DNA of 64,000 nt from Zhengitettix transpicula. Taxonomy: Eukaryota; Arthropoda; Insecta; Orthoptera; Tetrigidae. Position 1 is the stretch's first letter. Every line of letters begins with the position of its first letter. Where the stretch lies: contig CM073595.1 in assembly GCA_037074705.1 (NCBI GenBank), positions 27,185,501-27,249,500 of the forward strand. The letters are read 5' to 3'. This document shows positions 1 to 44,310 of this stretch, piece by piece. Both the position numbers and the translations under genes were made by a program. The notes beneath the pieces were generated by a model, which saw only the letters and a list, made by a program, of their open reading frames with translations, made no database searches and was not told where the DNA came from.

Positions 1-18
1 TTACAGTTTCTCCAATTC

Positions 19-90
19 TCCCATGTGGTCTAGAGGCTAGGATAGCTGGCTTTCACCCATCTGGCCCGGGTTCGATTTCCGGCATGGGAA
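19..90 (+). tRNA. tRNA-Glu(UUC)-like, variant class with mismatched anticodon stem
   Basis: First unit in the window. The anticodon loop is CTTTCAC (anticodon TTC, reads GAA) and the acceptor stem TCCCATG/CATGGGA is perfect. The 3' half of the anticodon stem reads CCATC instead of CCAGC, leaving a C-T mismatch. The D loop carries AGAGG instead of AGTGG, and the T stem ends TTCCGG instead of TCCCGG. This class recurs many times (for example at 883, 2467, 3619, 4627, 5779). Probably a pseudogene class spread by array turnover. Confidence 0.8.
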
Positions 91-162
91 ATTATTTTAT
101 TATATTATAGTCGCATTAAATATCTTATAATTTCGTTGAATTAATTTAATTTTCTCCAATAC

Positions 163-234
163 TCCCATGTGGTGTAGTGGCTAGGATAGCTGGCTTTCAC
201 CCAGCAGGCCTGGGTTCGATTCCCGGCATGGGAA
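163..234 (+). tRNA. tRNA-Glu(UUC), variant with GTGT D-stem
   Basis: Anticodon stem GCTGG/CCAGC, loop CTTTCAC and the acceptor stem are perfect. The D stem reads GTGT instead of GTCT, giving a G-G mismatch, and the T stem has CTGGG with one G-T wobble. The B box GGTTCGATTCC is intact. The same variant recurs in the higher-order repeats at 1027, 2611, 3763 and 4771. Function is uncertain because of the D-stem mismatch. Confidence 0.8.
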
Positions 235-738
235 ATGTTTTTATTATATTTTAGTCGCATTAAATATCTTAAAATTTCGTTGAATTAATTTCATTTTCTC
301 CAAATCTCCCATGTGGTCTAGTGGCTAGGATAGCTGCCTTTCACCCAGCAGGCCCGGGATCGTTTCCCGCCATGGGAAACGATTTTATTATATTATAGTC
401 GCAATAAATATCTTATAATTTCGTTGAAATAATTACAAATTCTCCAATTCTCCCATGTGGTCTAGTGGCTAGGATAGCTGGCTTTCACCCAGCATGCCCG
501 GGTTCGATTCCCGGCATGGGAAATGTTTTTATTATATTTTAGTCGCATTAAATATCTTATAATTTCGTTGAATTAATTTAATTTTCTCCTACACTCCCAT
601 GTGGTCTAGTGGCTAGGATAGCTGGCTTTCACCCATCAGGCCCGGGTTCGATTCCCGGCATGGGAAATTATTTTATTACATTATAGTCGCATTAAATATA
701 TTATAATTTCGTTGAATTAATTTAATTTTCTCCAATAC

Positions 739-810
739 TCCCATGTTGTCTAGTGGCTAGGATAGCTGGCTTTCACCCAGCAGGCCCGGGTTCGATTCCC
801 GGCATGGGAA
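739..810 (+). tRNA. tRNA-Glu(UUC), 'GTTG' class
   Basis: Representative of one of the two commonest tRNA forms in the array. It is identical to the consensus except that position 9 is T (CATGTTGTCTAG instead of CATGTGGTCTAG). All stems pair, the anticodon is TTC and the B box is consensus. In the A box (TRGYNNARNNG) the second base should be a purine, so this change may weaken Pol III recruitment without disturbing the fold. The form often alternates with the TGG form. Confidence 0.9.
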
Positions 811-1746
811 ATGTTTTTATTATATTTTAGTCGCATTAAATATCTTATAATTTCGTTGAAATAATTACAGTTTCTCCAATTCTCCCATGTGGTCTAGAGG
901 CTAGGATAGCTGGCTTTCACCCATCTGGCCCGGGTTCGATTTCCGGCATGGGAAATTATTTTATTATATTATAGTCGCATTAAATATCTTATAATTTCGT
1001 TGAATTAATTTAATTTTCTCCAATACTCCCATGTGGTGTAGTGGCTAGGATAGCTGGCTTTCACCCAGCAGGCCTGGGTTCGATTCCCGGCATGGGAAAT
1101 GTTTTTATTATATTTTAGTCGCATTAAATATCTTAAAATTTCGTTGAATTAATTTCATTTTCTCCAAATCTCCCATGTGGTCTAGTGGCTAGGATAGCTG
1201 CCTTTCACCCAGCAGGCCCGGGATCGTTTCCCGCCATGGGAAACGATTTTATTATATTATAGTCGCAATAAATATCTTATAATTTCGTTGAAATAATTAC
1301 AAATTCTCCAATTCTCCCATGTGGTCTAGTGGCTAGGATAGCTGGCTTTCACCCAGCATGCCCGGGTTCGATTCCCGGCATGGGAAATGTTTTTATTATA
1401 TTTTAGTCGCATTAAATATCTTATAATTTCGTTGAATTAATTTAATTTTCTCCTACACTCCCATGTGGTCTAGTGGCTAGGATAGCTGGCTTTCACCCAT
1501 CTGGCCCGGGTTCGATTCCCGGCATGGGAAATTATTTTATTACATTATAGTCGCATTAAATATCTTATAATTTCGTTGAATTAATTTAATTTTCTCCAAT
1601 ACTCCCATGTTGTCTAGTGGCTAGGATAGCTGGCTTTCACCCAGCAGGCCCGGGTTCGATTCCCGGCATAGGAAATGTTTTTATTATATTTTAGTCGCAA
1701 TAAATATCTTATAATTTCGTTGAAATAATTACAAATTCTCCAATTC

Positions 1747-1818
1747 TCCCATGTGGTCTAGTGGCTAGGATAGCTGGCTTTCACCCAGCAGGCCCGGGTT
1801 CGATTCCCGGCATGGGAA
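1747..1818 (+). tRNA. tRNA-Glu(UUC), full consensus copy
   Basis: A copy with no defect that I can see. The acceptor stem is TCCCATG/CATGGGA and the D arm is GTCT-loop-GGAT. The anticodon arm is GCTGG-CTTTCAC-CCAGC, the variable loop AGGC, the T arm CCGGG-TTCGATT-CCCGG, and the discriminator A. A box TGGTCTAGTGG and B box GGTTCGATTCC fit the Pol III consensus, and a T5 run follows. It matches animal cytosolic tRNA-Glu in layout. CCA is not encoded, as expected for a eukaryotic nuclear tRNA. Identical copies occur at 2899, 5059 and 6211. Confidence 0.96.
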
Positions 1819-2178
1819 ATGTTTTTATTATATTTTAGTCGCATTAAATATCTTATAATTTCGTTGAATTAATTTAATTTTCTCCTATACTCCCATGTGG
1901 TCTAGAGGCTAGGATAGCTGGCTTTCACCCATCAGGCCCGGGTTCGATTCCCGGCATGGGAAATTATTTTATTACATTATAGTCGCATTAAATATCTTAT
2001 AATTTCGTTGAATTAATTTAATTTTCTCCAATACTCCCATGTTGTCTAGTGGCTAGGATAGCTGGCTTTCACCCAGCAGGCCCGGGTTCGATTCCCGGCA
2101 TGGGAAATGTTTTTATTATATTTTAGTCGCATTAAATATCTTATAATTTCGTTGAAATAATTACAATTTCTCCAATTC

Positions 2179-2250
2179 TCCCATGTGGTCTAGTGGCTAG
2201 TATAGCTGCCTTTCACCCAGCAGGCCCGGGTTCGATTCGCGGCATGGGAA
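2179..2250 (+). tRNA. tRNA-Glu(UUC)-like, probable pseudogene class (GCTGC stem, CGCGG T-stem)
   Basis: Three linked differences from consensus: GGAT becomes GTAT in the D stem, GCTGG becomes GCTGC in the anticodon stem (C-C mismatch next to the loop), and CCCGG becomes CGCGG in the T stem. Three arms are affected, so a stable cloverleaf is unlikely. The same three changes travel together at 3331, 4339, 5491, 14,565 and 19,606, showing that the block is copied as part of higher-order repeats and not selected copy by copy. Confidence 0.75.
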
Positions 2251-2898
2251 ATGATTTTATTATATTATAGTCGCATTAAATATCTTATAATTTCGTTGAA
2301 TTAATTTAATTTTCTCCAACACTCCCATGTTGTCTAGTGGCTAGGATAGCTGGCTTTCACCCAGCAGGCCCGGGTTCGATTCCCGGCATGGGAAATGTTT
2401 TTATTATATTTTAGTCGCATTAAATATCTTATAATTTCGTTGAAATAATTACAGTTTCTCCAATTCTCCCATGTGGTCTAGAGGCTAGGATAGCTGGCTT
2501 TCACCCATCTGGCCCGGGTTCGATTTCCGGCATGGGAAATTATTTTATTATATTATAGTCGCATTAAATATCTTATAATTTCGTTGAATTAATTTAATTT
2601 TCTCCAATACTCCCATGTGGTGTAGTGGCTAGGATAGCTGGCTTTCACCCAGCAGGCCTGGGTTCGATTCCCGGCATGGGAAATGTTTTTATTATATTTT
2701 AGTCGCATTAAATATCTTAAAATTTCGTTGAATTAATTTCATTTTCTCCAAATCTCCCATGTGGTCTAGTGGCTAGGATAGCTGCCTTTCACCCAGCAGG
2801 CCCGGGATCGTTTCCCGCCATGGGAAACGATTTTATTATATTATAGTCGCAATAAATATCTTATAATTTCGTTGAAATAATTACAAATTCTCCAATTC

Positions 2899-2970
2899 TC
2901 CCATGTGGTCTAGTGGCTAGGATAGCTGGCTTTCACCCAGCAGGCCCGGGTTCGATTCCCGGCATGGGAA
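2899..2970 (+). tRNA. tRNA-Glu(UUC), full consensus copy
   Basis: Same sequence as the consensus copy at 1747: all arms paired, anticodon TTC, both internal promoter boxes intact, T5 run immediately downstream. Confidence 0.96.
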
Positions 2971-5058
2971 ATGTTTTTATTATATTTTAGTCGCATTAAA
3001 TATCTTATAATTTCGTTGAATTAATTTAATTTTCTCCTATACTCCCATGTGGTCTAGAGGCTAGGATAGCTGGCTTTCACCCATCAGGCCCGGGTTCGAT
3101 TCCCGGCATGGGAAATTATTTTATTACATTATAGTCGCATTAAATATCTTATAATTTCGTTGAATTAATTTAATTTTCTCCAATACTCCCATGTTGTCTA
3201 GTGGCTAGGATAGCTGGCTTTCACCCAGCAGGCCCGGGTTCGATTCCCGGCATGGGAAATGTTTTTATTATATTTTAGTCGCATTAAATATCTTATAATT
3301 TCGTTGAAATAATTACAATTTCTCCAATTCTCCCATGTGGTCTAGTGGCTAGTATAGCTGCCTTTCACCCAGCAGGCCCGGGTTCGATTCGCGGCATGGG
3401 AAATGATTTTATTATATTATAGTCGCATTAAATATCTTATAATTTCGTTGAATTAATTTAATTTTCTCCAACACTCCCATGTTGTCTAGTGGCTAGGATA
3501 GCTGGCTTTCACCCAGCAGGCCCGGGTTCGATTCCCGGCATGGGAAATGTTTTTATTATATTTTAGTCGCATTAAATATCTTATAATTTCGTTGAAATAA
3601 TTACAGTTTCTCCAATTCTCCCATGTGGTCTAGAGGCTAGGATAGCTGGCTTTCACCCATCTGGCCCGGGTTCGATTTCCGGCATGGGAAATTATTTTAT
3701 TATATTATAGTCGCATTAAATATCTTATAATTTCGTTGAATTAATTTAATTTTCTCCAATACTCCCATGTGGTGTAGTGGCTAGGATAGCTGGCTTTCAC
3801 CCAGCAGGCCTGGGTTCGATTCCCGGCATGGGAAATGTTTTTATTATATTTTAGTCGCATTAAATATCTTAAAATTTCGTTGAATTAATTTCATTTTCTC
3901 CAAATCTCCCATGTGGTCTAGTGGCTAGGATAGCTGCCTTTCACCCAGCAGGCCCGGGATCGTTTCCCGCCATGGGAAACGATTTTATTATATTATAGTC
4001 GCATTAAATATCTTATAATTTCGTTGAATTAATTTAATTTTCTCCTATACTCCCATGTGGTCTAGAGGCTAGGATAGCTGGCTTTCACCCATCAGGCCCG
4101 GGTTCGATTCCCGGCATGGGAAATTATTTTATTACATTATAGTCGCATTAAATATCTTATAATTTCGTTGAATTAATTTAATTTTCTCCAATACTCCCAT
4201 GTTGTCTAGTGGCTAGGATAGCTGGCTTTCACCCAGCAGGCCCGGGTTCGATTCCCGGCATGGGAAATGTTTTTATTATATTTTAGTCGCATTAAATATC
4301 TTATAATTTCGTTGAAATAATTACAATTTCTCCAATTCTCCCATGTGGTCTAGTGGCTAGTATAGCTGCCTTTCACCCAGCAGGCCCGGGTTCGATTCGC
4401 GGCATGGGAAATGATTTTATTATATTATAGTCGCATTAAATATCTTATAATTTCGTTGAATTAATTTAATTTTCTCCAACACTCCCATGTTGTCTAGTGG
4501 CTAGGATAGCTGGCTTTCACCCAGCAGGCCCGGGTTCGATTCCCGGCATGGGAAATGTTTTTATTATATTTTAGTCGCATTAAATATCTTATAATTTCGT
4601 TGAAATAATTACAGTTTCTCCAATTCTCCCATGTGGTCTAGAGGCTAGGATAGCTGGCTTTCACCCATCTGGCCCGGGTTCGATTTCCGGCATGGGAAAT
4701 TATTTTATTATATTATAGTCGCATTAAATATCTTATAATTTCGTTGAATTAATTTAATTTTCTCCAATACTCCCATGTGGTGTAGTGGCTAGGATAGCTG
4801 GCTTTCACCCAGCAGGCCTGGGTTCGATTCCCGGCATGGGAAATGTTTTTATTATATTTTAGTCGCATTAAATATCTTAAAATTTCGTTGAATTAATTTC
4901 ATTTTCTCCAAATCTCCCATGTGGTCTAGTGGCTAGGATAGCTGCCTTTCACCCAGCAGGCCCGGGATCGTTTCCCGCCATGGGAAACGATTTTATTATA
5001 TTATAGTCGCAATAAATATCTTATAATTTCGTTGAAATAATTACAAATTCTCCAATTC

Positions 5059-5130
5059 TCCCATGTGGTCTAGTGGCTAGGATAGCTGGCTTTCACCCAG
5101 CAGGCCCGGGTTCGATTCCCGGCATGGGAA
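5059..5130 (+). tRNA. tRNA-Glu(UUC), full consensus copy
   Basis: Consensus copy with perfect stems, anticodon TTC and T5 terminator. It sits at the same place in the higher-order repeat as the copy at 2899 (15 monomers earlier). Confidence 0.96.
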
Positions 5131-6210
5131 ATGTTTTTATTATATTTTAGTCGCATTAAATATCTTATAATTTCGTTGAATTAATTTAATTTTCTCCTAT
5201 ACTCCCATGTGGTCTAGAGGCTAGGATAGCTGGCTTTCACCCATCAGGCCCGGGTTCGATTCCCGGCATGGGAAATTATTTTATTACATTATAGTCGCAT
5301 TAAATATCTTATAATTTCGTTGAATTAATTTAATTTTCTCCAATACTCCCATGTTGTCTAGTGGCTAGGATAGCTGGCTTTCACCCAGCAGGCCCGGGTT
5401 CGATTCCCGGCATGGGAAATGTTTTTATTATATTTTAGTCGCATTAAATATCTTATAATTTCGTTGAAATAATTACAGTTTCTCCAATTCTCCCATGTGG
5501 TCTAGTGGCTAGTATAGCTGCCTTTCACCCAGCAGGCCCGGGTTCGATTCGCGGCATGGGAAATGATTTTATTATATTATAGTCGCATTAAATATCTTAT
5601 AATTTCGTTGAATTAATTTAATTTTCTCCAACACTCCCATGTTGTCTAGTGGCTAGGATAGCTGGCTTTCACCCAGCAGGCCCGGGTTCGATTCCCGGCA
5701 TGGGAAATGTTTTTATTATATTTTAGTCGCATTAAATATCTTATAATTTCGTTGAAATAATTACAGTTTCTCCAATTCTCCCATGTGGTCTAGAGGCTAG
5801 GATAGCTGGCTTTCACCCATCTGGCCCGGGTTCGATTTCCGGCATGGGAAATTATTTTATTATATTATAGTCGCATTAAATATCTTATAATTTCGTTGAA
5901 TTAATTTAATTTTCTCCAATACTCCCATGTGGTGTAGTGGCTAGGATAGCTGGCTTTCACCCAGCAGGCCTGGGATCGATTCCCGGCATGGGAAATGTTT
6001 TTATTATATTTTAGTCGCATTAAATATCTTAAAATTTCGTTGAATTAATTTCATTTTCTCCAAATCTCCCATGTGGTCTAGTGGCTAGGATAGCTGCCTT
6101 TCACCCAGCAGGCCCGGGATCGTTTCCCGCCATGGGAAACGATTTTATTATATTATAGTCGCATTAAATATCTTATAATTTCGTTGAAATAATTACATTA
6201 TCTCCAATTC

Positions 6211-6282
6211 TCCCATGTGGTCTAGTGGCTAGGATAGCTGGCTTTCACCCAGCAGGCCCGGGTTCGATTCCCGGCATGGGAA
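6211..6282 (+). tRNA. tRNA-Glu(UUC), full consensus copy
   Basis: Consensus copy with perfect acceptor, anticodon and T arms, anticodon TTC, and A and B boxes intact. It lies just after the last regular higher-order repeat, where the unit order becomes more mixed. Confidence 0.95.
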
Positions 6283-8370
6283 ATGTTTTTATTATATTTC
6301 AGTCGCAATAAATATCTTATAATTTCGTTGAAATAATTACAATTTCTCCAATTCTCCCATGTGGCCTAGTGGCTAGGATATCTGGCTTTCACCCAGCAGG
6401 CCCGGGTTCGATTCCCGGCATGGGAAAAGATTTTATTATATTATAGTCGCATTAAATATCTTATAATTTCGTTGAATTACTTTAATTTTCTCTAATACTC
6501 TTATGTGGTCTAGTGGCTAGGATAGCTGGCTTTCACCCAGCAGGCCCGGGTTCGATTCCCGGCATGGGAAATGTTTTTATTATATTTTAGTCGCATTAAA
6601 TATCTTATAATTTCGTTGAAATAATTACAATTTCTCCAATTCTCCCTTGTGGTCTAGTGGGTAGGATAGTTCCTTTTCACCCAGCAGGCCCGGGTTCGTT
6701 TCCCGGCATGGGAAATGATTTTATTATATTATAGTCGCATTTAATATCTAATAATTTCGTTGAAATAATTACAATATCTCCAATTCTCCCATGTGGTCTA
6801 GTGGCTAGGATAGCTGGCTTTCCCCCAGCAGGCCCGGGTTCGATTCGCGGCATGGGAAATGTTTTTATTATATTTTAGTCGCATTAAATATCTTATAATT
6901 TCGTTGAAATAATTACAATTTCTCACATTCTCCCATGTGGTCTAGTGGCTAAGATAGCTGGCTTTCACCCAGCAGGCCCGGTTTCGATTCCCGGCATAGG
7001 AAATGTTTTTATTATATTATAGTCGCATTAAATATCTGATAATTTCGTTGAATTAATTTAATTTTCTCCAATACTCCCATGTTGTCTAGAGTCTAGTATA
7101 GCTGGCTTTCACCCAGCAGGCCCGGGTTCGATTCCCGGCATGGGAAATGTTTTTATTATATTTTAGTCGCATTTAATATATAATAATTTCGTTGAATTAA
7201 TTACAATATCTCCAATTCTCCCATGCGGTCTAGTGGCTAGGATAGCTGGCTTTCACCCAGCAGGCCCGGGTTCGATTCCCGGCATGGGAATTGTTTTTAT
7301 TATATTTTAGTCGCATTAAATATGTTATAATTTCTTTGAAATAATTACAATTTCTCAAATTCTCCCATGAGGTCTAGTGGCTAGGATAGCTGGCTTTCAC
7401 CCAGCAGGCCCGGGTTCGATTCCCGGCATGCGAAAAGTTTCTATTATATTTTAGTCGCATTAAATATCTTATAATTTCGTTGAATTAATTTAATTTTCTC
7501 CAATACTCCCATGTTGTCTAGTGGCTAGGATAGCTGGCTTTCACCCAGCAGGCCCGGGTTCGATTCCCGGCATGGGAAATGTTTTTATTATATTTTAGTC
7601 GCATTAAATATCTTATAATTTCGTTGAAATAATTACAATTTGTCCAATTCTCCCATGTGGTCTAGTGGCTAGGATAGCTGGCTTTCACCTAGCAGGCCCA
7701 GGTTCTATTCGCGGCATGGGAAAAGATTTTATTATATTAAAGTCGCATTAAATATCTTATAATTTCGTTGAATTAATTTAATTTTCTCCAATACTCCCAT
7801 GTTGTCTAGTGGCTAGGATAGCTGGCTTTCACCCAGCAGGCCCGGGTTCGATTCCCGGCATGGGAAAAGTTTTTATTATATTTTAGTCGCATTAAATATC
7901 TTATAATTTCGTTGAATTAATTTAATTTTCTCCAAAACTCCCATGTTGTCTAGTGGCTAGGATAGCTGGCTTTCACCCAGCAGGCCCGTGTTCGATTCCC
8001 GGCATGGGAAATGTTTTTATTATATTTTAGTCGCATTAAATATCTTATAATTTCGTTGAAATAATTACAATTTGTCCAATTCTCCCATGTGGTCTAGTGG
8101 CTAGGATAGCTGGCTTTCACCTAGCAGGCCCAGGTTCTATTCGCGGCATGGGAAAAGATTTTATTATAATAAAGTCGCATTAAATATCTTATAATTTCGT
8201 TGAATTAATTTAATTTTCTCCAATACTCCCATGTTGTCTAGTGGCTAGGATAGCTGGCTTTCACCCAGCAGGCCCGCGTTCGGTTCCCTGCATGGGAAAT
8301 GATTTTATTATATTATAGTCGCTTTAAATATCTTATAATTTCGTTGAATTAATTTAATTTTCTCCAATAC

Positions 8371-8447
8371 TCCCATGTTGTCTAGTGGCTAGGATAGCTG
8401 GCCTGGCTTTCACCCAGCAGGCCCGGGTTCGATTCGCGGCATTGGAA
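8371..8447 (+). pseudogene. tRNA-Glu pseudogene with 5-nt insertion
   Basis: The anticodon-arm region reads GCTGGCCTGGCTTTCAC, a 5-nt duplication of CCTGG or an equivalent. The acceptor 3' strand is CATTGGA, which breaks a pair. This single insertion shifts all following units by +5, after which the 144-bp spacing resumes (8520, 8664, 8808 and so on). Confidence 0.85.
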
Positions 8448-11400
8448 ATGTTTCTATTATATTTTAGTCGCATTAAATATCTTATAATTTCGTTGAATTA
8501 ATTTAATTTTCTCCAATACTTCCATGTTGTCTAGTGGCTAGGATAGCTGGCTTTCAGCAAGCAGGCCCGGGTTCGATTCCCGGCATGGGAAATGTATTTA
8601 TTATATTTTAGTCGCATTTAATATCTTATAATTTCGTTGAAATAATTACAATTTCTCCAATTCTTCCATGTGGTCTAGTGGCTAGGATAGCTGGCTTTCA
8701 CCCAGCAGGCCCACGTTCGGTTCCCGGCATGGGAAATGATTTTATTATATTATAGTCGCTTTAAATATCTTATATATTCGTTGAATTAATTTAATTTTCT
8801 CCAAAACTCCCATGTTGTCTAGTGGCTAGGATAGCTGGCTTTCACCCAGCAGTCCCGGGTTCGATTCCCGGCATGGGAAATGATTTTATTATATTATAGT
8901 CGCATTTAATATCTTATAATTTAGTTGAATTAATTTAATTTTCTCCAATACTCCCATGTTGTCTAGTGGCTAGGATAGCTGGCTTTCACCCAGCAGGCTC
9001 GGGTTCGAATCTCGGCATGGGAAATATTTTTATTATATTTTAGTCGCATTAAATATCTTATAATTTCGTTGAATTACTTTAATTTTCTCTAATACTCTTA
9101 TGTGGTCTAGTGGCTAGGATAGCAGGCTTTCACCCAGCAGGCCTGGGTTCGATTCCCGGCATGGGAAATGTTTTTATTATATTTTAGTCGCATTAAATAT
9201 CTTAAAATTTCGTTGAATTAATTTCATTTTCTCCAAATCTCCCATGTGGTCTAGTGGCTAGGATAGCTGCGTTTCACCCAGCAGGCCCGGGATCGTTTCC
9301 CGCCATGGGAAACGATTTTATTATATTATAGTCGCATTAAATATCTTATAATTTCGTTGAAATAATTACATTATCTCCAATTCTCCCATGTGGTCTAGTG
9401 GCTAGGATAGCTGGCTTTCACCCAGCAGGCACGGGTTCGATTCCCGGCATGGGAAATGTTTTTATTATATTTCAGTCGCAATAAATATCTTATAATTTCG
9501 TTGAAATAATTACAATTTCTCCAATTCTCCCATGTGGTCTAGTGGCTAGGATATCTGGCTTTCACCGAGCAGGCCCGGGTTCGATTCCCGGCATGGGAAA
9601 TGATTTTATTATATTATAGTCGCATTAAATATCTTATAATTTCGTTGAATTACTTTAATTTTCTCTAATACTCTTATGTGGTCTAGTGGCTAGGATAGCT
9701 GGCTTTCACCCAGCAGGCCCGGGTTCGATTCCCGGCATGGGAAATGTTTTTATTATATTTTAGTCGCATTAAATATCTTATAATTTCGTTGAAATAATTA
9801 CAATTTCTCCAATTCTCCCTTGTGGTCTAGTGGCTAGGATAGTTCCTTTTCACCCAGCAGGCCCGGGTTCGTTTCCCGGCATGGGAAATGATTGTATTAT
9901 ATTTTAGTCGCATTAAATATCTAATAATTTCGTTGAAATAATTACAATATCTCCAATTCTCCCATGTGGTCTAGTGGCTAGGATAGCTGGCTTTCACCCA
10001 GCAGGCCCGGGTTCGATTCCCGGCATGGGAAATGATTTTATTATATTATAGTCGCATTAAATATCTTATAATTTCGTTGAATTAATTTAATTTTCTCCAA
10101 TACTCCCATGTTGTCTAGTGGCTAGGATAGCTGGCTTTCACCCAGCAGGCCCGGGTACGATTCCCGGCATGGGAAATGATTTTATTATATTTTAGTCGCA
10201 TTAAATATCTTATAATTTCGTTGAAATAATTACAATTTCTCCAATTCTCCCATGTGGTCTAGTGGCTAAGATAGCTGGCTTTCACCCAGCAGGCCCGGGT
10301 TCGATTCCCGGCATGGGAAATGATTTTATTATATTATAGTCGCATTAAATATCTTATAATTTTGTTGAATTAATTTAATTTTCTCTAATACATCCATGTT
10401 GTCTAGTGGCTAGGATAGCTGGCTTTCACCCAGCAGGCCCGGGTTCGATTCCCGGCATGGGAACTGATTTTATTATATTTTAGTCGCATTAAATATCTTA
10501 TAATTTCGTTGAAATAATTACAATTTCTCCAATTCTCCCATGTGGTCTAGTGGCTAAGATAGCTGGCTTTCACCCATCTGGCCCGGGTTCGATTCCCAGC
10601 AGGGGAAATGTTTTTATTATATTTTAGTCGCATTAAATATCTTAAAATTTCGTTGAATTAATTTCATTTTCTCCAAATCTCCCATGTGGTCTAGTGGCTA
10701 GGATAGCTGGCTTTCACCCAGCAGGCCCGGGTTCGATTCCCGGCATGTGAAATGTTTTTATTATATTTTAGTCGCAATAAATATCTTATAATTTCGTTGA
10801 AATAATTACAATTTCTCCAATTCTCCCATGTGGTCTAGTGGCTAGGATAGCTGGCTTTCACCCAACAGGCCCGCGTTCGGTTCCCGGCAAGGGAAATGAT
10901 TTTATTATATTATAGTCGCTTTAAATATCTTATAATTTCGTTGAATTAATTTAATTTTCTCCAATACTCCCATGTTTTCTAGTGGCTAGGATAGCTGGCT
11001 TTCACCCAGCAGGCCCGGGTTCGATTCCCGGCATGAGAAATATTTTTATTATATTTTAGTCGCATTAAATATCTTATAATTTCGTTGAATTAATTTAATT
11101 TTCTCTAATACTCTTATGTGGTCTAGTGGCTAGGATAGCAGGCTTTCACCCAGCAGGCCCGGGTTCGATTCCCAGCAGGGGAAATGTTTTTATTATATTT
11201 TAGTCGCATTAAATATCTTAAAATTTCGTTGAATTAATTTCATTTTCTCCAATACTCCCATGTTGTCTAGTGGCTAGGATAGCTGGCTTTCACCCAGCAG
11301 GCCCGGGTTCGATTTCCGGCATGGGAAATGATTATATTATATTATAGTCGCATTAAATATCTTATAATTTCGTTGAATTAATTTAATTTTCTCCAATACT

Positions 11401-26590: not shown

Positions 26591-29500
26591 TTTATTATAT
26601 TATAGTCGCATTAAATATCTTATAATTTCGTTGAATTAATTTAATTTTCTCTAATACTCCCATGTTGTCTAGTGGCTAGGATAGCTGGCTTTCACCCAGC
26701 AGGCCCGGCTTCGATTCCAGGCATGGGAAATGTTTTTATTATATTTTAGTCGCATTAAATATCTTATAATTTCGTTGAAATAATTACAATTTCTCCAATT
26801 CTCCCATGTGGTCTAGTGGCTAGTATAGCTGGCTTTCACCCAGCAGGCCCGGGTTCGATTCGCGGCATGGGAAATGATTTTATTATATTATAGTCGCATT
26901 AAATATTTTATAATTTCGTTGAATTAATTTAATTTTCTCCAATACTCCCATGTTGTCTAGTGGCTAGGATAGCTGGCTTTCACCCAGCAGGCCCGGGTTC
27001 GATTCCCGGCATGGGAAATTTTTTTTATTATATTTTAGTCGCATTACATATCTTATAATTTGGTTGAATTAATTTAATTTTCTCTAATACTCTCATGCGG
27101 TCTAGTGGCTACGATAGCTGGCTTTCACCCAGCATGCCCGGGTTCGATTCCCGGCATGGGAAATGTTTTTATTATATTTTAGTCGCAATAAATATCTTAT
27201 AATTTCGTTGAATTAATTTAATTTTCTCCAATACTCCCATGTTGTCTAGTGGCTAGGATAGCTGGCTTTCACCCAGCAGGCCCGGGTTCGATTCCCGGCA
27301 TGGGAAATGTTTTTATTATATTTTAGTCGCATTAAATATCTTATAATTTCGTTGAATTAATTAATTTTCTCCAAAACTCCCATGTTGTCTAGTGGCTAAG
27401 ATAGCTGGCTTCCCCCAGCAGGCCCGGGTTCGATTCCCGGCATGGGAAATGATTTTATTATATTATAGTCGCATTAAATATCTTATAATTTCGTTGAATT
27501 AATTTAATTTTCTCCAATACCCCATGTTGTCTAGTGGCTAGGATAGCTGGCTTTCACCCAGCAGGCCCGGGTTCGTTTCCCGGCATGGGAAATGTTTTAT
27601 TATATTTTAGTCGCAATAAATATCTTATAATTTCGTTGAAATAATTACAATTTCTCCAATTCTCCCATGTGGTCTAGTGGCTAGGATAGCTGGCTTTCAC
27701 CCAGCAGGCCCGGGTTCGATTCCCGGCATGGGAAATATTTTTTATTATATTTTAGTCGCATTACATATCTTATAATTTCGTTGAATTAATTTAATTTTCT
27801 CTAATACTCTCATGCGGTCTAGTGGCTACGATAGCTGGCTTTCACCCAGCATGCCCGGGTTCGATTCCCGGCATGGGAAATGTTTTTATTATATTTTAGT
27901 CGCAATAAATATCTTATAATTTCGTTGAATTAATTTAATTTTCTCCAATACTCCCATGTTGTCTAGTGGCTAGGATAGCTGGCTTTCACCCAGCAGGCCC
28001 GGGTTCGATTCCCGGCATGGGAAATGTTTTTATTATATTTTAGTCGCATTAAATATCTTATAATTTCGTTGAATTAATTTAATTTTCTCCAAAACTCCCA
28101 TGTTGTCTAGTGGCTAAGATAGCTGGCTTCCCCCAGCAGGCCCGGGTTCGATTCCCGGCATGGGAAATGATTTTATTATATTATAGTCGCATTAAATATC
28201 TTATAATTTCGTTGAATTAATTTAATTTTCTCCAATACCCCATGTTGTCTAGTGGCTAGGATAGCTGGCTTTCACCCAGCAGGCCCGGGTTCGATTCCCG
28301 GCATGGGAAATGTTTTTATTATATTTTAGTCGCAATAAATATCTTATAATTTCGTTGAAATAATTACAATTTCTCCAATTCTCCCATGTGGTCTAGTGGC
28401 TAGGATAGATGGCTTTCACCCAGCATGCCCGGGTTCGATTCCCGGCATGGGAAATATTTTTATTATATTTTAGTCGCAATAAATATCTTATAATTTCGTT
28501 GAAATAATAACAATTTCTCCAATTCTCCCATGTTGTTTAGTGGCTAGGATAGCTGGCTTTCACCCAGCAGCCCCGGGTTCGATTCCCGGCATGGGAAATG
28601 TTTTTATTATATTTTAGTCGCAATAAATATCTTACAATTTCGTTGAAATAATCACAAGTTCTCCAATTCTCCCATGTGGTCTAGTGGCTAAGATAGCTGG
28701 CTTCCCCCAGCAGGCCCGGGTTCGATTCCCGGCATGGGAAATGATTTTATTATATTATAGTCGCATTAAATATCATATAATTTCGTTGAATTAATTTCAT
28801 TTTCTCCAATACTCCCATGTTGTCTAGTGGCTAGGATAGCTGGCTTTCACCCAGCAGGCCCGGGTTCGATTCCCGCCATGGGAAATGTTTTTATTATATT
28901 TTAGTCGCATTAAATATCTTATAATTTCGTTGAAATAATTACAATTTCTCCAATTCTCCCATGTGGTCTAGTGGCTAGTATAGCTGGCTTTCACCCAGCA
29001 GGCCCGGGTTCGATTCGCGGCATGGGAAATGATTTTATTATATTATAGTCGCATTAAATATCTTATAATTTCGTTGAATTAATTTAATTTTCTCCAATAC
29101 TCCCATGTTGTCTAGTGGCTAGGATAGCTGGCTTTCACCCAGCAGGCCCGGGTTCGATTCCCGGCATGGGAAATGTTTTTATTATATTTTAGTCGCATTA
29201 AATATCTTATAATTTCGTTGAATTAATTTAATTTTCTCCTATACTCCCATGTGGTCTAGAGGCTAGGATAGCTGGCTTTCACCCATCAGGCCCGGGTTCG
29301 ATTCCCGGCATGGGAAATTATTTTATTACATTATAGTCGCAATAAATATCTTATAATTTCGTTGAATTAATTTAATTTTCTCCAATACTCCCATGTTGTC
29401 TAGAGGCTAGGATAGCTGGCTTTCACCCAGCAGGCCCGGGTTCGATTCCCGTCATGGGAAATGTTTTTATTATATTTTAGTCGCATTAAATATCTTATAA

Positions 29501-32500
29501 TTTCGTTAAAATAATTACAATTTCTTCAATTCTCCCATGTGGTTTAGTGGCTAGGATAGCTGGCTTTCACCCAGCAGGCCCGGGTTCGATTTCCGGCATG
29601 GGAAATGATTATATTATATTATAGTCGCATTAAATATCTTATAATTTCGTTGAATTAATTTAATTTTCTCCAATACTACCATGTTGTCTAGTGGCTAGGA
29701 TAGCTGGCTTTCACCCAGCAGGCCCGGGTTCGATTCCCGGCATGGGAAATGTTTTTATTATATTTTAGTCGCATTAAATATCTTATAATTTCGTTGAAAT
29801 AATTACAATTTCTCCAATTCTCCCATGTGGTCTAGTGGCTAGTATAGCTGCCTTTCACCCAGCAGGCCCGGGTTCGATTCGCGGCATGGGAAATGATTTT
29901 ATTATATTATAGTCGCATTAAATATCTTATAATTTCGTTGAATTAATTTAATTTTCTCCAACACTCCCATGTTGTCTAGTGGCTAGGATAGCTGGCTTTC
30001 ACCCAGCAGGCCCGGGTTCGATTCCCGGCATGGGAAATGTTTTTATTATATTTTAGTCGCATTAAATATCTTATAATTTCGTTGAAATAATTACAGTTTC
30101 TCCAATTCTCCCATGTGGTCTGAGGCTAGGATAGCTGGCTTTCACCCATCTGGCCCGGGTTCGATTTCCGGCATGGGAAATTATTTTATTATATTATAGT
30201 CGCATTAAATATCTTATAATTTCGTTGAATTAATTTAATTTTCTCCAATACTCCCATGTGGTCTAGTGGCTAGGATAGCTGGCTTTCACCCAGCAGGCCC
30301 AGGTTCGATTCCCGGCATGGGAAATGATTTTATCATATTATGGTCGCATTAAATATCTTATAATTTCGTTGAATGAATTTAATTTTCTCCAATACTCTCA
30401 TGTTGTCTAGTGGCTAGGATAGCTAGCTTTCACCCAGCAGGCCCGGGTTCGATTCCCGGCATGGGAAATGTTTTTATTATATTTTAGTCGCATTAAATAT
30501 CTTATAATTTCGTTGAAATAATTACAATTTCTCAAATTCTCCCATGTTGTCTAGTGGCTAGGATAGCTGGCTTTCACCCAGCATGCCCGGGTTCGATTCC
30601 CGGCATGGGAAATGTTTTTATTATATTTTAGTCGCAATAAATATCTTATAATTTCGTTGAATTAATTTAATTTTCTCCAATACTCCCATGTTGTCTAGTG
30701 GCTAGGATAGCTGGCTTTCACCCAGCAGGCCCGGGTTCGATTCCCGGCATGGGAAATGTTTTTATTATATTTTAGTCGCATTAAATATCTTATAATTTCG
30801 TTGAATTAATTTAATTTTCTCCAAAACTCCCATGTTGTCTAGTGGCTAAGATAGCTGGCTTCCCCCAGCAGGCCCGGGTTCGATTCCCGGCATGGGAAAT
30901 GATTTTATTATATTATAGTCGCATTAAATATCTTATAATTTCGTTGAATTAATTTAATTTTCTACAATACCCCATGTTGTCTAGTGGCTAGGATAGCTGG
31001 CTTTCACCCAGCAGGCCCGGGTTCGATTCCCGGCATGGGAAATGTTTTTATTATATTTTAGTCGCAATAAATATCTTATAATTTCGTTGAAATAATTACA
31101 ATTTCTCCAATTCTCCCATGTGGTCTAGTGGCTAGGATAGCTGGCTTTCACCCAGCAGGCCCGGGTTCGATTCCCGGCATGGGAAATATTTTTTATTATA
31201 TTTTAGTCGCATTACATATCTTATAATTTCGTTGAATTAATTTAATTTTCTCAAATACTCTCATGCGGTATAGTGTCTAGGATAGATGGCTTTCACCCAG
31301 CATGCCCGGGTTCGATTCCCGGCATGGGAAATATTTTTATTATATTTTAGTCGCAATAAATATCGTATAATTTCGTTGAAATAATAACAATTTCTCCAAT
31401 TCTCCCATGTGGTTTAGTGGCTAGGATAGCTGGCTTTCACCCAGCAGCCCCGGGTTCGATTCCCGGCATGGGAAATGTTTTTATTATATTTTAGTCGCAA
31501 TAAATATCTTATAATTTCGTTGAAATAATCACAATTTCTCCAATTCTCCCATGTGGTCTAGTGGCTAAGATAGCTGGCTTCCCCCAGCAGGCCCGGGTTC
31601 GATTCCCGGCATGGGAAATGATTTTATTATATTATAGTCGCATTAAATATTATATAATTTCGTTGAATTAATTTCATTTTCTCCAATACTCCCATGTTGT
31701 CTAGTGGCTAGGATAGCTGGCTTTCACCCAGCAGGCCCGGGTTCGATTCCCGCCATGGGAAATGTTTTTATTATATTTTAGTCGCATTAAATATCTTATA
31801 ATTTCGTTGAAATAATTACAATTTCTCCAATTCTCCCATGTGGTCTAGTGGCTAGTATAGCTGGCTTTCACCCAGCAGGCCCGGGTTCGATTCGCGGCAT
31901 GGGAAATGATTTTATTATATTATAGTCGCATTAAATATCTTATAATTTCGTTGAATTAATTTAATTTTCTCCAATACTCCCATGTTGTCTAGTGGCTAGG
32001 ATAGCTGGCTTTCACCCAGCAGGCCCGGGTTCGATTCCCGGCATGGGAAATGTTTTTATTATATTTTAGTCGCATTAAATATCTTATAATTTCGTTGAAA
32101 TAATTACAATTTCTCTAATTCTCCCATGTGGTCTAGTGGCTAGGATAGCCGGCTTTCACCCAGCAGGCCGGGGTTCGATTCCTGGCATGGGAAATATTTT
32201 TTATTATATTTTAGTCGCATTACATATCTTATAAATTCGTTGAATTAATTTAATTTTCTCTTATACTCTCATGCGGTCTAATGTCTAGGATAGCTGGCTT
32301 TCACCCAGCATGCCCGGGTTCGATTCCCGGCATGGGAAATGTTTTTATTATATTTTAGTCGCAATAAATATCTTATAATTTCGTTGAAATAATTACAAAT
32401 TCTCCAATTCTCCCATGTGGTCTAGTGGCTAGGATAGCTGGCTTTCACCCAGCAGGCCCAGGTTCGATTCCCGGCATGGGAAATGTTTTTATTATATTTT

Positions 32501-33705
32501 AGTCGCATTAAATATCTTATAATTTCGTTGAATTAATTTAATTTTCTCCTATACTCCCATGTGGTCTAGAGGCTAGGATAGCTGGCTTTCACCCAGCAGG
32601 CTCGGGTTCGATTCCCGGCATGGCAAATTATTTTATTACATTATAGTCGCATTAAATATCTTATAATTTCGTTGAATTAATTTAATTTTCTCCAATACTC
32701 CCATGTTGTCTAGAGGCTAGGATAGCTGGCTTTCACCCAGCAGGCCCGGGTTCGATTCCCGTCATGGGAAATGTTTTTATTATATTTTAGTCGCATTAAA
32801 TATCTTATAATTTCGTTAAAATAATTACAATTTCTTCAATTCTCCCATGTGGTCTAGTGGCTAGGATAGCTGGCTTTCACCCATCTGGCCCGGGTTCGAT
32901 TTCCGGCATGGGAAATGATTATATTATATTATAGTCGCATTAAATATCTTATAATTTCGTTGAATTAATTTAATTTTCTCGAATACTCCCATGTTGTCTA
33001 GTGGCTAGGATAGCTGGCTTTCACCCAGCAGGCCCGGGTTCGATTCCCGGCATGGGAAATGTTTTTATAATATTTTAGTCGCATTAAATATCTTATAATT
33101 TCGTTGAAATAATTACAATTTCTCCAATTCTCCCATGTGGTCTAGTGGCTAAGATAGCTGGCTTCCCCCAGCAGGCCCGGGTTCGATTCCCGGCATGGGA
33201 AATGATTTTATTATATTATAGTCGCATTAAATATCTTATAATTCCGTTGAATTAATTTAATTTTCTCCAATACTCCCATGTTGTCTAGTGGCTAGGATAG
33301 CTGGCTTTCACCCAGCAGGCCCGGGTTCGATTCCCGGCATGGGAAATGTTTTTATTATATTTTAGTCGCATTAAATATCTTATAATTTCGTTGAAATAAT
33401 TACAATTTCTCCAATTCTCCCATGTGGTCTAGTGGCTAGTATAGCTGCCTTTCACCCAGCAGGCCCGGGTTCGATTCGCGGCATGGGAAATGATTTTATT
33501 ATATTATAGTCGCATTAAATATCTTATAATTTCGTTGAATTAATTTAATTTTCTCCAACACTCCCATGTTGTCTAGTGGCTAGGATAGCTGGCTTTCACC
33601 CAGCAGGCCCGGGTTCGATTCCCGGCATGGGAAATGTTTTTATTATATTTTAGTCGCATTAAATATCTTATAATTTCGTTGAAATAATTACAGTTTCTCC
33701 AATTC

Positions 33706-33777
33706 TCCCATGTGGTCTAGAGGCTAGGATAGCTGGCTATCACCCATCTGGCCCGGGTTCGATTTCCGGCATGGGAA
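33706..33777 (+). pseudogene. tRNA-like copy with AUC anticodon
   Basis: The anticodon loop reads CTATCAC, so bases 33,739 to 33,741 are ATC, formally an Asp anticodon. The copy belongs to the class with CCATC in the 3' anticodon stem and TTCCGG in the T arm, so it is likely non-functional. Confidence 0.55.
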
Positions 33778-36700
33778 ATTATTTTATTATATTATAGTCG
33801 CATTAAATATCTTATAATTTCGTTGAATTAATTTAATTTTCTCCAATACTCCCATGTGGTCTAGTGGCTAGGATAGCTGGCTTTCACCCAGCAGGCCCAG
33901 GTTCGATTCCCGGCATGGGAAATCATTTTATTATTTTGTAGTCGAATTAAATATCTTATAATTTCGTTGAATTAATTTAATATTTTCTAATACTTACATG
34001 TGGTCAAGTGGCTAGGATACCTGGCTTTCACCCAGCAGGCCCGGATTCGATTCCCGGCATGGGAAATGATTTTATGATATTATAGTCGCATTAAATATCT
34101 TATAATTTCGATGAATTAATTTAATTTTCTGTAATACTTACATGTGGTCTAGTGGCTATGATAAGGGGCTTTCACCCAGCATGCCCGGGTTCGATTCCCG
34201 GCATGGGAAATGATTTTATTATATTTTAGTCGCATTAAATATCTCATAATTCCGTTGAATTAATTTAATTTTCTCCAATACTCCCATGTTGTCTAGTGGC
34301 TAGGATAGCTGGCTTTCACCCATCTGGCCCGGGTTCGATTTCCGGCATGGGAAATTATTTTATTATATTATAGTCGCATTAAATATCTTATAATTTCGTT
34401 GAATTAATTTAATTTTCTCCAATACTCCCATGTGGTCTAGTGGCTAGGATAGCTGGCTTTCACCCAGCAGGCCCGGGTTCGATTCCCGGCATGGGAAATG
34501 TTTTTATTAAATTTTAGTCGCATTAAATATCTTATAATTTCGTTGAAATAATTACAATTTCTCCAATTCTCCTATGTGGTCTAGTGGCTATGATAGCTGG
34601 CTTTCACCCAGCAGGCCCAGGTTCGATTCCCGGCATGGGAAATGATTTTATTATATTATGGTCGCATTAAATATCTTATAATTTCGTTGAATGAATTTAA
34701 TTTTCTCCAATACTCTCATGTTGTCTAGTGGCTAGGATAGCTAGCTTTCACCCAGCAGGCCCGGGTTCGATTCCCGGCATGGGAAATGTTTTTATTATAT
34801 TTTAGTCGCATTAAATATCTTATAATTTCGTTGAAATAATTACAATTTCTCAAATTCTCCCATGTTGTCTAGTGGCTAGGATAGCTGGCTTTCACCCAGC
34901 AGGCCCGGGTTCGATTCCTGGCATGGGAAATGATTTTATTATATTATAGTCGCATTAAATATCTTATAATTTCGTTGAATTAATTTCATTTTCTCCAACT
35001 CTCCCATGTGGTCTAGTGGCTAGGATAGCTGGCTTTCACCAAGCAGGCCCGGGTTCAATTCCCGGCATGGGAAATGATTTTATTATATTATAGTCGCATT
35101 AAATATCTTATAATTTCGTTGAATTAATTAATTTATCTACAATACTCCCATGTTGTCTGGTGGATAGGATAGCTGGCTTTCACGCACAAGGCCCGGGTTC
35201 GATTCCCGGCATGGGAAATGTTTTTATTATATTTTAGTCGCATTAAATATCTTATAATTTCGTTGAAATAATTACAGTTTCTCCAATTCTCCCATGTGGT
35301 CTAGAGGCTAGGATAGCTGGCTTTCACCCATCTGACCCGGATTCGATTTCCGGCATGGGAAATTATTTTATTATATTATAGTCGCATTAAATATCTTATA
35401 ATTTCGTTGAATTAATTTAATTTACTCCAATTCTCCCATGTGGTCTAGTGGCTAGGATAGCTGGCTTTCACCCAGCAGGCACGGGTTCGATTCCCGGCAT
35501 GGGAAATGATTTTATTATTTTATAGTCGAATTAAATATCTTATAATTTCGTTGAATTAATTTAATATTTTCTAATACTTACATGTGGTCAAGTGGCTAGG
35601 ATACCTGGCTTTCACCCAGCAGGCCCGGATTCGATTCCCGGCATGGGAAATGATTTTATGATATTATAGTCGCATTAAATATCTTATAATTTCGATGAAT
35701 TAATTTAATTTTCTGTAATACTTACATGTGGTCTAGTGGCTATGATAAGGGGCTTTCACCCAGCATGCCCGGGTTCGATTCCCGGCTTGGGAAATGATTT
35801 TATTATATTTTAGTCGCATTAAATATCTCATAATTTCGTTTAATTAATTTAATTTTCTGCAATACTCTTAAGTTGTCTAGTGGCTAGGATAGCTGGCTTT
35901 CACCCATCAGGCCCGGGTTCGATTCCCGGCATGGGAAATGTTCTTATTATATTTTAGTCGCATTACATATCATATGATTTCGTTGAATAAATTTCATTCT
36001 ATCCAAAACTCCCATGTGGTCTAGTGGCTAGGTTAGCTGGCTTTCACCCAGCAGGCCCGGGTTTGATTCCCGGCAAGGGAAGTGATTTTATTATATTATA
36101 GTCGCATTAAAGATCTTATAATTTCGTTGAATTAATTTAATTTTCTCCGATACTCCCATGTTGTCTAGTTGCTAGGATAGCTGGCTTTCACCCAGCAGGC
36201 CCGGGTTCGATTCCCGGCATTGGAAATGTTTTTATTATATTTTAGTCGCATTATATATCTTATAATTTCGTTGAAATAATTAATATTTCTCCAATTCTGC
36301 CATGTGGTCTAGTGGCTAGGATAGCTGGCTTTCACCCAGCAGGCCCGGGTTCGATTCCCGGCATGGGTAATGATTTTATTATATCTTAGTCGCATTAAAT
36401 ATCTTATAATTTCGTTGATTTAATTTAATTTTCTCCAATACTCCCATGTTGTCTAGTGGCTAGGATAGCTGGCTTTCACCCAGCAGGCCCGGGTTCGATT
36501 CCCGGCATGGGAAATGTTTTAATTATATTTTAGTCGCATCAAATATCTTATAATTTCATTGAGTTAATTTCATTTTCTCCAGTTCTCCCAGGTGGTCTAG
36601 TGGATAGGATAGCTGGCTTTCACCCAGCAGGCCAGGGTTCGATTCCCGACATGAGAAATGTTCTTATTGTATTTTAGTCGCATTAAATATCTTATAATTT

Positions 36701-37584
36701 CGTTGAAATAATTTCATTTTCTCCAACTCTCCCATGTGGTCTAGTGGCTAGGATAGCTGTCTTTCACACAGCAGGCTTTGGTTCGATTCCGGGCAATTTT
36801 TTGTTATATTTTAGTCGCATTAAATATCTTATAATTTCGTTGATTTAATTTCATTTTCTCCAATTCCTTAATATGGTCTAGTGGCTAGGATAGCTGGCTT
36901 TCACCCAGCGGGCCCGTGTTCGATTCCCAGCATGTGGGATGTTTTAAATATATTTTAGTTGCATTAAATATCTTATAGTTTCGTTGAATTAATTTCATTT
37001 TCTCCAATTCCTTAATATGGTCTAGTGGGTAGGATAGCTCGCTTTCACCCAGCAGGCCCGGGTTCGATTCGCGGCATGGGAAATGATTTTATTATATTAT
37101 TGTCGCAATAAATATGTTATAATTTCGTTGAATTAATTTCATTTTCTCCTATACTCGTATGAGTTCTAGTGGTTAGGATAGCTCGCCTTAACCAGCAGGC
37201 CCGTGTTCGATTCCCGGCATGGGAAATAATTTTATTATATTTTAGTCGCATTAAATATCTTATAATTTCGTTGATATAAATTCAACTTCTTCTATTTTCC
37301 ATGTGGTCTAGTGACTAGGATAGCTCGCTTTCACCCAGCAGGCCCGGGTTTGATTCTCGGCATGGGCAATGCTTTTATTATATTATAGTCGCATTATATA
37401 TCGTATAATTTCGTTGAATTAAGTTTTTTTTCTTTAATACTCCCATGTGGTCTAGTGGCTAGGATTGCTGGCTTTCACCCAGCGGGCCCGGGTTCGATTC
37501 ACGGCTTGGGAAATATTTTTGTTGTATTTTAGTCGCATTAAATATCTTTTAGTTTCGTTGAATTAACTTCATTTTCTCCAATTC

Positions 37585-37657
37585 TCTCATGTGGTCTAGT
37601 GTCTAGGATAGCTGGCTTCTACCCAGCAGGTCCGTATTCGTTTCCCTGGTATGGGAA
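37585..37657 (+). pseudogene. tRNA-like copy with UCU anticodon, edge unit
   Basis: The anticodon loop reads CTTCTAC, so bases 37,618 to 37,620 are TCT (Arg-type), while the anticodon stem GCTGG/CCAGC is intact. The T stem is broken (TCCGTATTCG then TTTCCCTGGT, one base longer) and the acceptor starts TCTCATG. It lies in the decaying edge and is most likely a pseudogene. Confidence 0.6.
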
Positions 37658-38017
37658 TTGTTTTTTTTAAATTTTATTCGCATTTAATATCCTATAATTT
37701 CGTTGAAATAATTTCATTTTCTCCAATTGTCTTATTTGGTTAAGTGGCTAGGATAGCTGGGTCTCACCCAGCAAGCCCGCGTATGATTCCCGGCGGTGGA
37801 ACGGTTTTTATCAGAGATTAATTCCTATGAATGCCTTAAGATTTCATTTAATTACTTTCACGATATCACATTATCTTATGTCGTCTAGTGGTTTGGATTG
37901 CTTGCTTTTGCATGGCAGGCCCTGGTTCAATTATTCGGCAATGGATAGATAATTTTGATTTTTTTTACTGAAAATTATTGTACGATTTTATTACTTTTTA
38001 TTCAATTTCTTAGTTTC

Positions 38018-38089
38018 TACGATGTGGTGTCGTGGCTAAGACTGGTGTCTCTCACCCGGTACGCCTATTTTAGTTTTACGGCAGGAGGT
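38018..38089 (+). pseudogene. Last recognisable tRNA-Glu-derived unit
   Basis: Matches the unit only in patches: GATGTGGTGTCGTGGCTAAG for the A-box region and a loop CTCTCAC (anticodon CTC). There is no B box and no paired acceptor. It marks the effective end of the array, and only a half-unit is seen about 145 bp further on. Confidence 0.65.
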
Positions 38090-38203
38090 AGAAATTTAGC
38101 ATAGGTTTGTCACCAATTATAAGTTAATTTTTTTTTGCTATTTAAGATCTTACTATTCACATTCTCTTATGTCGTTTAGTGGCCAATGAATGTCATAATT
38201 AAA

Positions 38204-40770: not shown

Positions 40771-40906
40771 AGATGTATGTATGTCTGTAAAACAAATATA
40801 TAAACAAAAATATAACAAGTAAAACAATTTGAAAGAAGAAGAAAAATAATAATGTTACATTCCATTATAATTTAAGATGACAAAGTTTCTAATGTACGGT
40901 TTGCCC

Positions 40907-44303: not shown

Positions 44304-44310
44304 AGAAATT

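Follow-up and report, generated by a model that had tools for sequence, protein, structure and literature searches.

Does a long row of tRNA-Glu(UUC) genes on contig C6 of Zhengitettix transpicula represent a functional gene cluster that supplies tRNA, or satellite DNA that merely carries a tRNA gene in its unit? The window, the whole stretch of 64,000 nucleotides that was analysed, contains the right-hand part of this row, and the surrounding contig and the rest of the genome were used to interpret it. We favour the reading (probability about 0.72) that a genuine tRNA-Glu(UUC) gene gave rise to the array, which is a young satellite, grows by unequal exchange and now carries the tRNA as a passenger.

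Extent and homogenisation of the array

The array unit is 144 bp long and is composed of a 72-bp tRNA-Glu(UUC) gene and a 72-bp AT-rich spacer, repeated head to tail. The features of the window are as follows, with box A and box B placed by their consensus sequences.

1..38065, plus strand: rightmost 38 kb of the tRNA-Glu(UUC) satellite with its 144-bp unit (ARAGORN, TRF, wraparound alignment)
1747..1818, plus strand: example unit; its 72-nt tRNA matches the dispersed tRNA-Glu(UUC) without a difference (cmscan, unit checks, dispersed copies), and the window has 15 units of this kind
1754..1764, plus strand: box A of the example unit, tRNA positions 8–18
1797..1807, plus strand: box B of the example unit, tRNA positions 51–61
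1819..1890, plus strand: spacer of the example unit, a T-run and then AT-rich sequence as far as the following tRNA
36730..38065, plus strand: decaying right edge, with rising unit divergence and the last units barely recognisable
38066..64000, no strand: right flank, with no further units and with short repeats in common with the left flank

The whole array extends from C6:27102108 to about C6:27223565 and comprises about 844 units in 121.5 kb, at 27.10–27.22 Mb of the 81.1-Mb contig. The assembly has seven large contigs of 76–260 Mb; the eighth measures 1.5 Mb. In the first 10 kb of each of its five smallest contigs, none of four longer cytochrome oxidase motifs was present, and the one four-letter motif that did occur is unspecific. 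For a retrotransposon frame of the genome, the named relatives among 120 of 201 matches listed come from a cockroach (63% over almost the entire frame, 67% over 72% of it, and 47% for a third), which points to an insect-like genome and nothing narrower. The preliminary description had reported a tandem 144-bp tRNA-Glu(UUC) array that was open to the left; the array is real and larger than claimed, and it continues for another 83.4 kb beyond the window, which holds its last ~262 units. In the wraparound alignment and the unit rows, all of the units lie in one orientation within a single uninterrupted block, and none of the 844 rows bears an insertion longer than 8 bp. The 844 rows thus have the form of satellite DNA, a short non-coding unit repeated head to tail over a long distance.

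Independent programs agreed on the pattern in the window. ARAGORN called 247 tRNA-like genes between positions 19 and 37512, all on the plus strand (225 Glu(UUC), 20 with no determined anticodon, one Lys and one Asp), and TRF found a single array, at 7–37794, with a period of 144 and 262.5 copies. The wraparound alignment placed 262 units with starts from 19 to 37600, followed by decaying similarity to about 38065, and in positions 1–20000, 133 cmscan matches to RF00005 exceeded the gathering score, with 34.3 to 67.8 bits. A chance origin of the tandem tRNA pattern is ruled out.

The units are not identical: the mean pairwise identity is 92%, and 387 distinct units occur among 841. In this and all following counts over 841 units, three right-edge units with at least 40 mismatches are left out and the partial first unit is kept. 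Blocks of several units, dead copies included, recur at many lags, the longest spanning 40 units at a lag of 70, and runs of at least eight near-identical units, at various lags, number 72. These recurring blocks and the decaying right edge are the marks of homogenisation by exchange that satellite DNA displays; the left edge is sharp and falls inside a tRNA copy. A higher-order repeat with one fixed period was rejected, as the best of 249 lags stood less than one point above the mean pairwise identity.

Decay, parent gene and growth

Most copies of the tRNA are damaged. A stem pair is broken or an indel is present in the tRNA of 518 of the 841 units, and 54 have lost an anticodon-loop base; dead versions have themselves been amplified, one with an anticodon-loop deletion being present in 18 copies. 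All checks (stems, box A, box B, anticodon and T-run) were passed by 31 of the 262 window units, or 77 when the frequent G9T change is allowed, so that the previously reported figure of about 265 tRNA-Glu genes holds as a count of units but not of intact genes. Over the whole array, the corresponding numbers are 90 and 261 of 841. In a functional tRNA gene cluster, most copies would retain an intact cloverleaf, internal promoter and terminator, and these 90 units fall far short of that. Position 9, within box A, is T in 357 units and G in the example unit, and the array also includes units with a CUC or a UUU anticodon. Box B is still consensus-like in 654 units, and TTTT lies within the first 30 nt of the spacer in 824. 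Since most copies are damaged, the array looks like runaway repeat growth and not like a tRNA factory, and it is probably little transcribed.

Of 24 dispersed tRNA-Glu(UUC) copies in the same genome, 20 have exactly the consensus tRNA of the array; the 24 are the better dispersed matches, eight weaker single matches (80–87% identity) being left out, and one set of dispersed loci took in 9 of 17 selected. The same canonical sequence is found in only 38 of the 841 array units (Fisher p 9e-22, with units that are not independent of each other). By sequence identity, the seed of the array is the genome's ordinary tRNA-Glu(UUC) gene, and because the same tRNA sequence stands in the dispersed copies, the parent is still identifiable to the base.

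Under the preferred reading, the array would have started when a tRNA-Glu(UUC) gene and a short spacer were duplicated in tandem. While selection persisted, a few ancestral copies would have diverged in the spacer and hardly in the tRNA, and unequal exchange or replication-based copying may then have expanded these copies in blocks. As the tRNA is already provided by some two dozen dispersed genes, selection on the array tRNA would have been lost. Selfish or neutral satellite amplification, one of the roles proposed earlier, fits these data. If so, the locus is a satellite caught soon after birth, with its parent gene in sight, and a natural experiment in how selection releases an amplified gene; it would bear on whether tRNA genes seed satellites and whether Pol III genes in surplus are silenced by the cell.

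Elsewhere in the genome, we found three smaller tRNA-Glu arrays, of about 8–13 units each, and a three-copy 552-bp tandem, which suggest that tandem growth has begun several times. Common ancestry of the spacers of the C6, C7 and C5 arrays found no support, as their alignments gave z values of 1.1, 0.4 and 0.4 against shuffles, with one unit or consensus per array. We consider it rather unlikely that the genome repeatedly turns tRNA-Glu genes into arrays of 144–150-bp units since the tRNA gene is itself recombinogenic, through Pol III transcription or fork stalling. Single genes, the 552-bp tandem, the arrays of ~8–13 units and the satellite would then form one series ending in the runaway 844-unit array, and the spread of G9T would mark selection for silent units after the array had come to burden Pol III.

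Constraint on the tRNA and the spacer

The tRNA and the spacer were compared in two ways, by substitution types and by copies. Corrected for base composition, the ratio of substitution types in the tRNA to those in the spacer was 0.93 (95% CI 0.82–1.08), and for types seen once or twice it was 1.04 (0.71–1.58). At paired sites, 17 of 98 substitution types kept the pair, as compared to 20% expected. Counted by copies, 460 of 1206 changes at paired sites kept it, which is above the 20% expected; the copy-weighted divergence was 3.7% in the tRNA and 6.4% in the spacer, and that of the anticodon was as low as 0.67%, over three sites. The lower tRNA divergence, the pair-keeping copies and the little-changed anticodon can be read as some constraint. 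Common variants occupied 8 of 72 spacer columns and 1 of 72 tRNA columns, a weak excess, with p 0.03 at a 15% cut chosen after inspection of the data and 0.06 at 10, 20 and 30%. Concerning selection for the product of the unit, the substitution types give no sign of constraint, while the copy-weighted counts leave room for some.

A gene-dosage array would instead have been built and maintained because very large amounts of tRNA-Glu(UUC), or of its fragments, are selected for, with the defective units as tolerated ballast. The units that look competent, 90 to 261, exceed the 24 dispersed copies; the TTTT run is widely kept, the copy-weighted divergence is lower in the tRNA than in the spacer, and in a small minus-strand tRNA-Glu(CUC) array on C7 the tRNA is likewise better kept than the spacer. 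However, perfect units are rare, the substitution types are unconstrained, dead versions have been amplified and a box A change has spread through a large share of the units, all of which make this explanation improbable. High tRNA-Glu supply and a source of tRNA fragments, both suggested in the preliminary description, are disfavoured because the tRNA part has decayed.

Equally improbable, in our judgement, is a chromatin element, in which the array, through bound TFIIIC or Pol III factors, would act as a boundary, condensin-loading block or other chromosome scaffold with no need of a functional tRNA. The many consensus-like copies of box B and the single uninterrupted block of one orientation are in line with such an element. 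Box B is not spared, though, its divergence being 3.8% as compared to 3.4% at paired tRNA sites, so nothing shows selection for it. The suggested TFIIIC boundary or condensin block is left without support, because box B varies like the rest of the tRNA.

Known tRNA-derived repeats and the flank

A very unlikely origin is a tRNA-headed SINE instead of a tRNA gene. Squamate SINE-derived satellites have units of similar length (~143–151 nt in geckos), some of them tRNA-related (PMC10702118), and a SINE-like stretch can be read in the right flank. Those satellites derive from SINEs that have a body as well as a LINE-related part, whereas the present unit joins an unchanged canonical tRNA gene to a 72-bp spacer that looks unrelated, and, among the best candidates listed, the dispersed matches outside tandem arrays cover little more than the tRNA. 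Assembly expansion or contamination, with a true array far shorter or from another organism, is highly improbable: assembler duplications could be among the near-identical blocks, which reach 40 units, but there is no N in 164 kb around the array, the distinct units are numerous, the blocks recur at many different lags, and the consensus equals the genome's own dispersed genes.

Tandem families derived from tRNA are already known, and the precedents named earlier need additions. According to the SINE-derived satellite paper (PMC10702118), the newt Cynops pyrrhogaster carries the Pol III/TAN (Hirt) family, with a ~360-nt tandem unit transcribed in vitro and, by its original title (Nagahashi et al. 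1991), derived from tRNA-Glu by retroposition; the Xenopus OAX repeat is cited alongside it. The present array likewise is a tandem repeat with a tRNA-like part traced to tRNA-Glu, but its unit is 144 nt and retains the canonical gene unchanged. The human 1q23.3 tRNA VNTR is also a long tRNA-containing tandem array, unstable in copy number, but has 9–43 units of 7.3 kb with five tRNA genes each and CTCF binding (PMC4041453), as compared to one 72-nt gene per 144 bp in some 844 units. The Arabidopsis tRNA-Ser/Tyr (SYY) cluster also consists of tandem tRNA genes and is silent in most tissues, but it has two isotypes, is functional and is reactivated in root tips (PMC12308677), whereas the present array has one isotype and is mostly damaged. 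Tandem tRNA duplication in mostly parallel orientation also underlies the Nematostella and teleost clusters, with fifty and more members (PMC2888827), and plant clusters, with 2–110 members and a largest identical run of 26 (PMC12652284), as against ~844 units of one isotype and of satellite size. Harttia catfish satellites also contain tRNA-gene-derived sequence but are composite, mixed with SINE and LINE parts (PMC11955569). The array is unusual in its purity and size. No single-isotype tRNA-Glu satellite of such size was recognised in the literature, judged mostly by titles and the starts of abstracts and mostly outside subscription journals, and four 20-letter pieces of the sequence had no printed copies in literature texts.

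Automatic tRNA gene counts can be inflated many-fold by such a locus, as the 247 ARAGORN calls in the window against 31 strictly intact units illustrate. In the right flank, no coding gene was recognised among eight frames compared with Pfam, which gave one match below the cut-off, taken as chance. The tRNA-like, SINE-like stretch in this flank, read by eye, lies at about 59045–59200 of the window.

Extent and probable parent gene of the C6 array

The array lies on C6, one of the large contigs (C1-C7) of the 993.6-Mb, 337-contig assembly. One retrotransposon frame, along with the overall character of the sequence, points to an insect as the likely source. In the window (G000:C6:27185501-27249500), ARAGORN called 247 tRNA-like genes between 19 and 37512, all on the plus strand and 225 of them Glu(UUC), and TRF reported a single 144-bp array at 7-37794. 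The preliminary description of a head-to-tail 144-bp array of at least 38 kb, open to the left, is borne out: the array runs unbroken leftward to C6:27102108 and is 121.5 kb long. The left edge is sharp and falls within a tRNA copy, while the right edge decays across ~9 units, the last recognisable at C6:27223565 (window 38065). Wraparound alignment yielded 844 unit rows, of which 841, including the partial first unit, have fewer than 40 mismatches to the consensus and form the basis of the counts below. In none of the 844 rows does an insertion exceed 8 bases, and therefore no mobile element is seen interrupting the 121.5 kb.

The unit consensus comprises a 72-nt tRNA-Glu(UUC), with 21/21 stem pairs and both box A and box B, and a 72-bp AT-rich spacer that begins with a T-run and contains TATAAT, starting at -37 relative to the next tRNA. 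Dispersed tRNA-Glu(UUC) copies, taken from the better matches to window units (eight weaker matches left out), are located on C1, C2, C3, C4, C6 and C7. The array tRNA consensus is identical to 11 of 15 copies at six 10-kb loci and to 9 of 9 at further loci, and all 24 copies have at least four T downstream, within the 15-25 bases inspected after the gene. Among the 300-bp flanks of the first 15, eight resemble that of another copy, reflecting local duplications, and seven do not. Because the array tRNA consensus has the sequence of the dispersed copies, the array appears to have been seeded by an ordinary tRNA-Glu(UUC) gene, rather than by a diverged relative.

Decay and possible constraint of the tRNA copies

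Only 38 of the 841 units retain the canonical tRNA, the sequence of the dispersed copies, and 245 distinct versions are present. At least one stem pair is broken in 452 units and 104 have an indel within the tRNA, with one or the other defect in 518. Box A is consensus-like in 413 units and box B in 654, and TTTT within 30 nt is kept in 824. The most frequent version (137 units) bears G9T, a change found in 357/841 units, which replaces the purine expected at that box A position. A deletion in the anticodon loop occurs in 54 units, one such version being present 18 times. The anticodon differs from UUC in 17 units (ten CUC, four UUU, and one each of AUC, UCU and incomplete), at window 21193 and 33706 and otherwise left of the window; if transcribed, these units could misread codons. 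In window 1-20000, units reaching the gathering score of the Rfam tRNA model scored 34.3 to 67.8 bits, with canonical units at 66.5 bits and three units higher. A complete tRNA gene in every unit, as first described, holds for the intact consensus, but only 90/841 units pass every criterion (261/841 with G9T tolerated).

Selection was assessed as the ratio of tRNA substitutions to those predicted from the spacer rate, corrected for base composition. This ratio was 0.93 (0.82-1.08) for substitution types, 1.04 (0.71-1.58) for types with one or two occurrences and 1.04 (0.65-1.81) for those with at least 10; counted by copies, it was 0.68 (0.39-1.31) overall and 0.89 (0.49-1.89) with common variants removed, the common/rare cut having been set after the data were seen and the array units being non-independent. 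At paired sites, 17/98 substitution types keep the pair, against 20% expected, whereas by copies pair-keeping changes (460/1206) exceed that 20%. Uncorrected divergence by copies is 3.7% in the tRNA versus 6.4% in the spacer, and only 0.67% in the anticodon. Eight spacer columns with common variants account for the lower tRNA value: when columns above 15% (one tRNA, eight spacer; Fisher p 0.03, and 0.06 at cuts of 10, 20 and 30%) are removed, divergence is 3.1% in the tRNA versus 2.5% in the spacer. The counting methods thus partly conflict on tRNA constraint. We read the common, linked spacer variants as old, deriving from a few ancestral copies with the tRNA still under selection, and the many rarer variants as younger than the expansion, with little or no constraint in them.

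Growth of the array and its precedents

Stretches of consecutive units reappear in nearly identical form at other places in the array (40 units at lag 70, 28 at 116 and 28 at 71), and 72 such runs of at least 8 units were found in the whole array. No single higher-order period emerged among the lags compared across it, and mean divergence from the consensus is uniform along its length, except in the right edge region. The recurring blocks match the trace that would be expected of repeated unequal exchange, or of block copying in replication or repair, although the near-identical blocks could in part be assembler duplications.

The best-supported interpretation, judged from block recurrence and the mostly damaged copies, is satellite amplification, one of the roles proposed at the outset. 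A tRNA gene would have seeded the satellite, the unit would have multiplied through block duplication, and the tRNA part would by now be mostly a passenger. The other proposed roles, in which the array is kept for tRNA-Glu dosage, fragment supply or a TFIIIC scaffold, are compatible with the 90 to 261 units that still look competent; however, the pattern of change speaks for none of them, and we do not favour them. Since full transcription would give many defective or mis-anticodoned tRNAs, the array is expected to be largely silent.

Arrays of tRNA genes are known in Entamoeba. As far as titles, abstracts and citing texts describe them, tRNA-derived tandem families include a ~360-nt newt family, which the original title derives from tRNA-Glu by retroposition, together with the Xenopus OAX repeat, cited alongside SINE-derived satellites (both in PMC10702118), as well as catfish satellites with tRNA-derived components (PMC11955569). 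Large tRNA clusters are likewise described, with fifty and more members in Nematostella and teleosts (PMC2888827), 2 to 110 in plants (PMC12652284) and 9-43 tRNA-containing 7.3-kb units in human (PMC4041453), and in Arabidopsis most tissues silence the SYY cluster (PMC12308677). None of these systems, as described there, unites a single isotype and an exact canonical gene with a 144-bp unit in ~844 copies, as the C6 array does. Our literature search, mostly at title and abstract level, found no report of such an array; as far as we have seen, the combination is new, although tRNA-derived tandem families are known.

Other tRNA-Glu arrays and the right flank

tRNA-Glu arrays elsewhere in the genome (L numbers, ~10-kb genome pieces with their own positions)
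C7:38.764-38.770 Mb (L019:9392 to L020:1192 and L020:3240-5136), two inverted arrays, 150-bp units, mostly tRNA-Glu(CUC), 11.9 + 12.6 copies
C5:60.474 Mb (L021:8880 to L022:175), third array, 150-bp units, CUC and UUC anticodons, ~8.6 copies
C6:46.18 Mb (L027:5440-6617), 552-bp tandem, ~97% identical, three tRNA-Glu(UUC) copies, one canonical

Short tRNA-Glu arrays thus seem to arise repeatedly in this genome; the 552-bp tandem is possibly a nascent one. The spacers of the 844-unit C6 array and of the C7 and C5 arrays show no similarity to one another beyond that of shuffles. The tRNA part of the C7 minus-strand array has diverged less than its spacer (2.9% versus 11.0% per site, 12 units), and this array looks to be under constraint, whereas the tRNA is not the less diverged part in the C7 plus-strand array (3.7 versus 3.7%, 12 units) or the C5 array (7.8 versus 7.2%, 8 units).

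To the right of the C6 array, a frame at window 58234-58638 bears a resemblance to the final part of a mariner-type transposase; its only Pfam match, to another family, fell below the cut-off. A tRNA-like, SINE-like stretch with a box-B-like motif, recognised by eye at window 59045-59200, received no ARAGORN call and no Rfam match at the gathering score. Window 60926-61660 holds an irregular series of related, GGTACCGGGAGTATTTTTGACTCTCTTAA-like motifs of 28-29 bp, part of which TRF reports.
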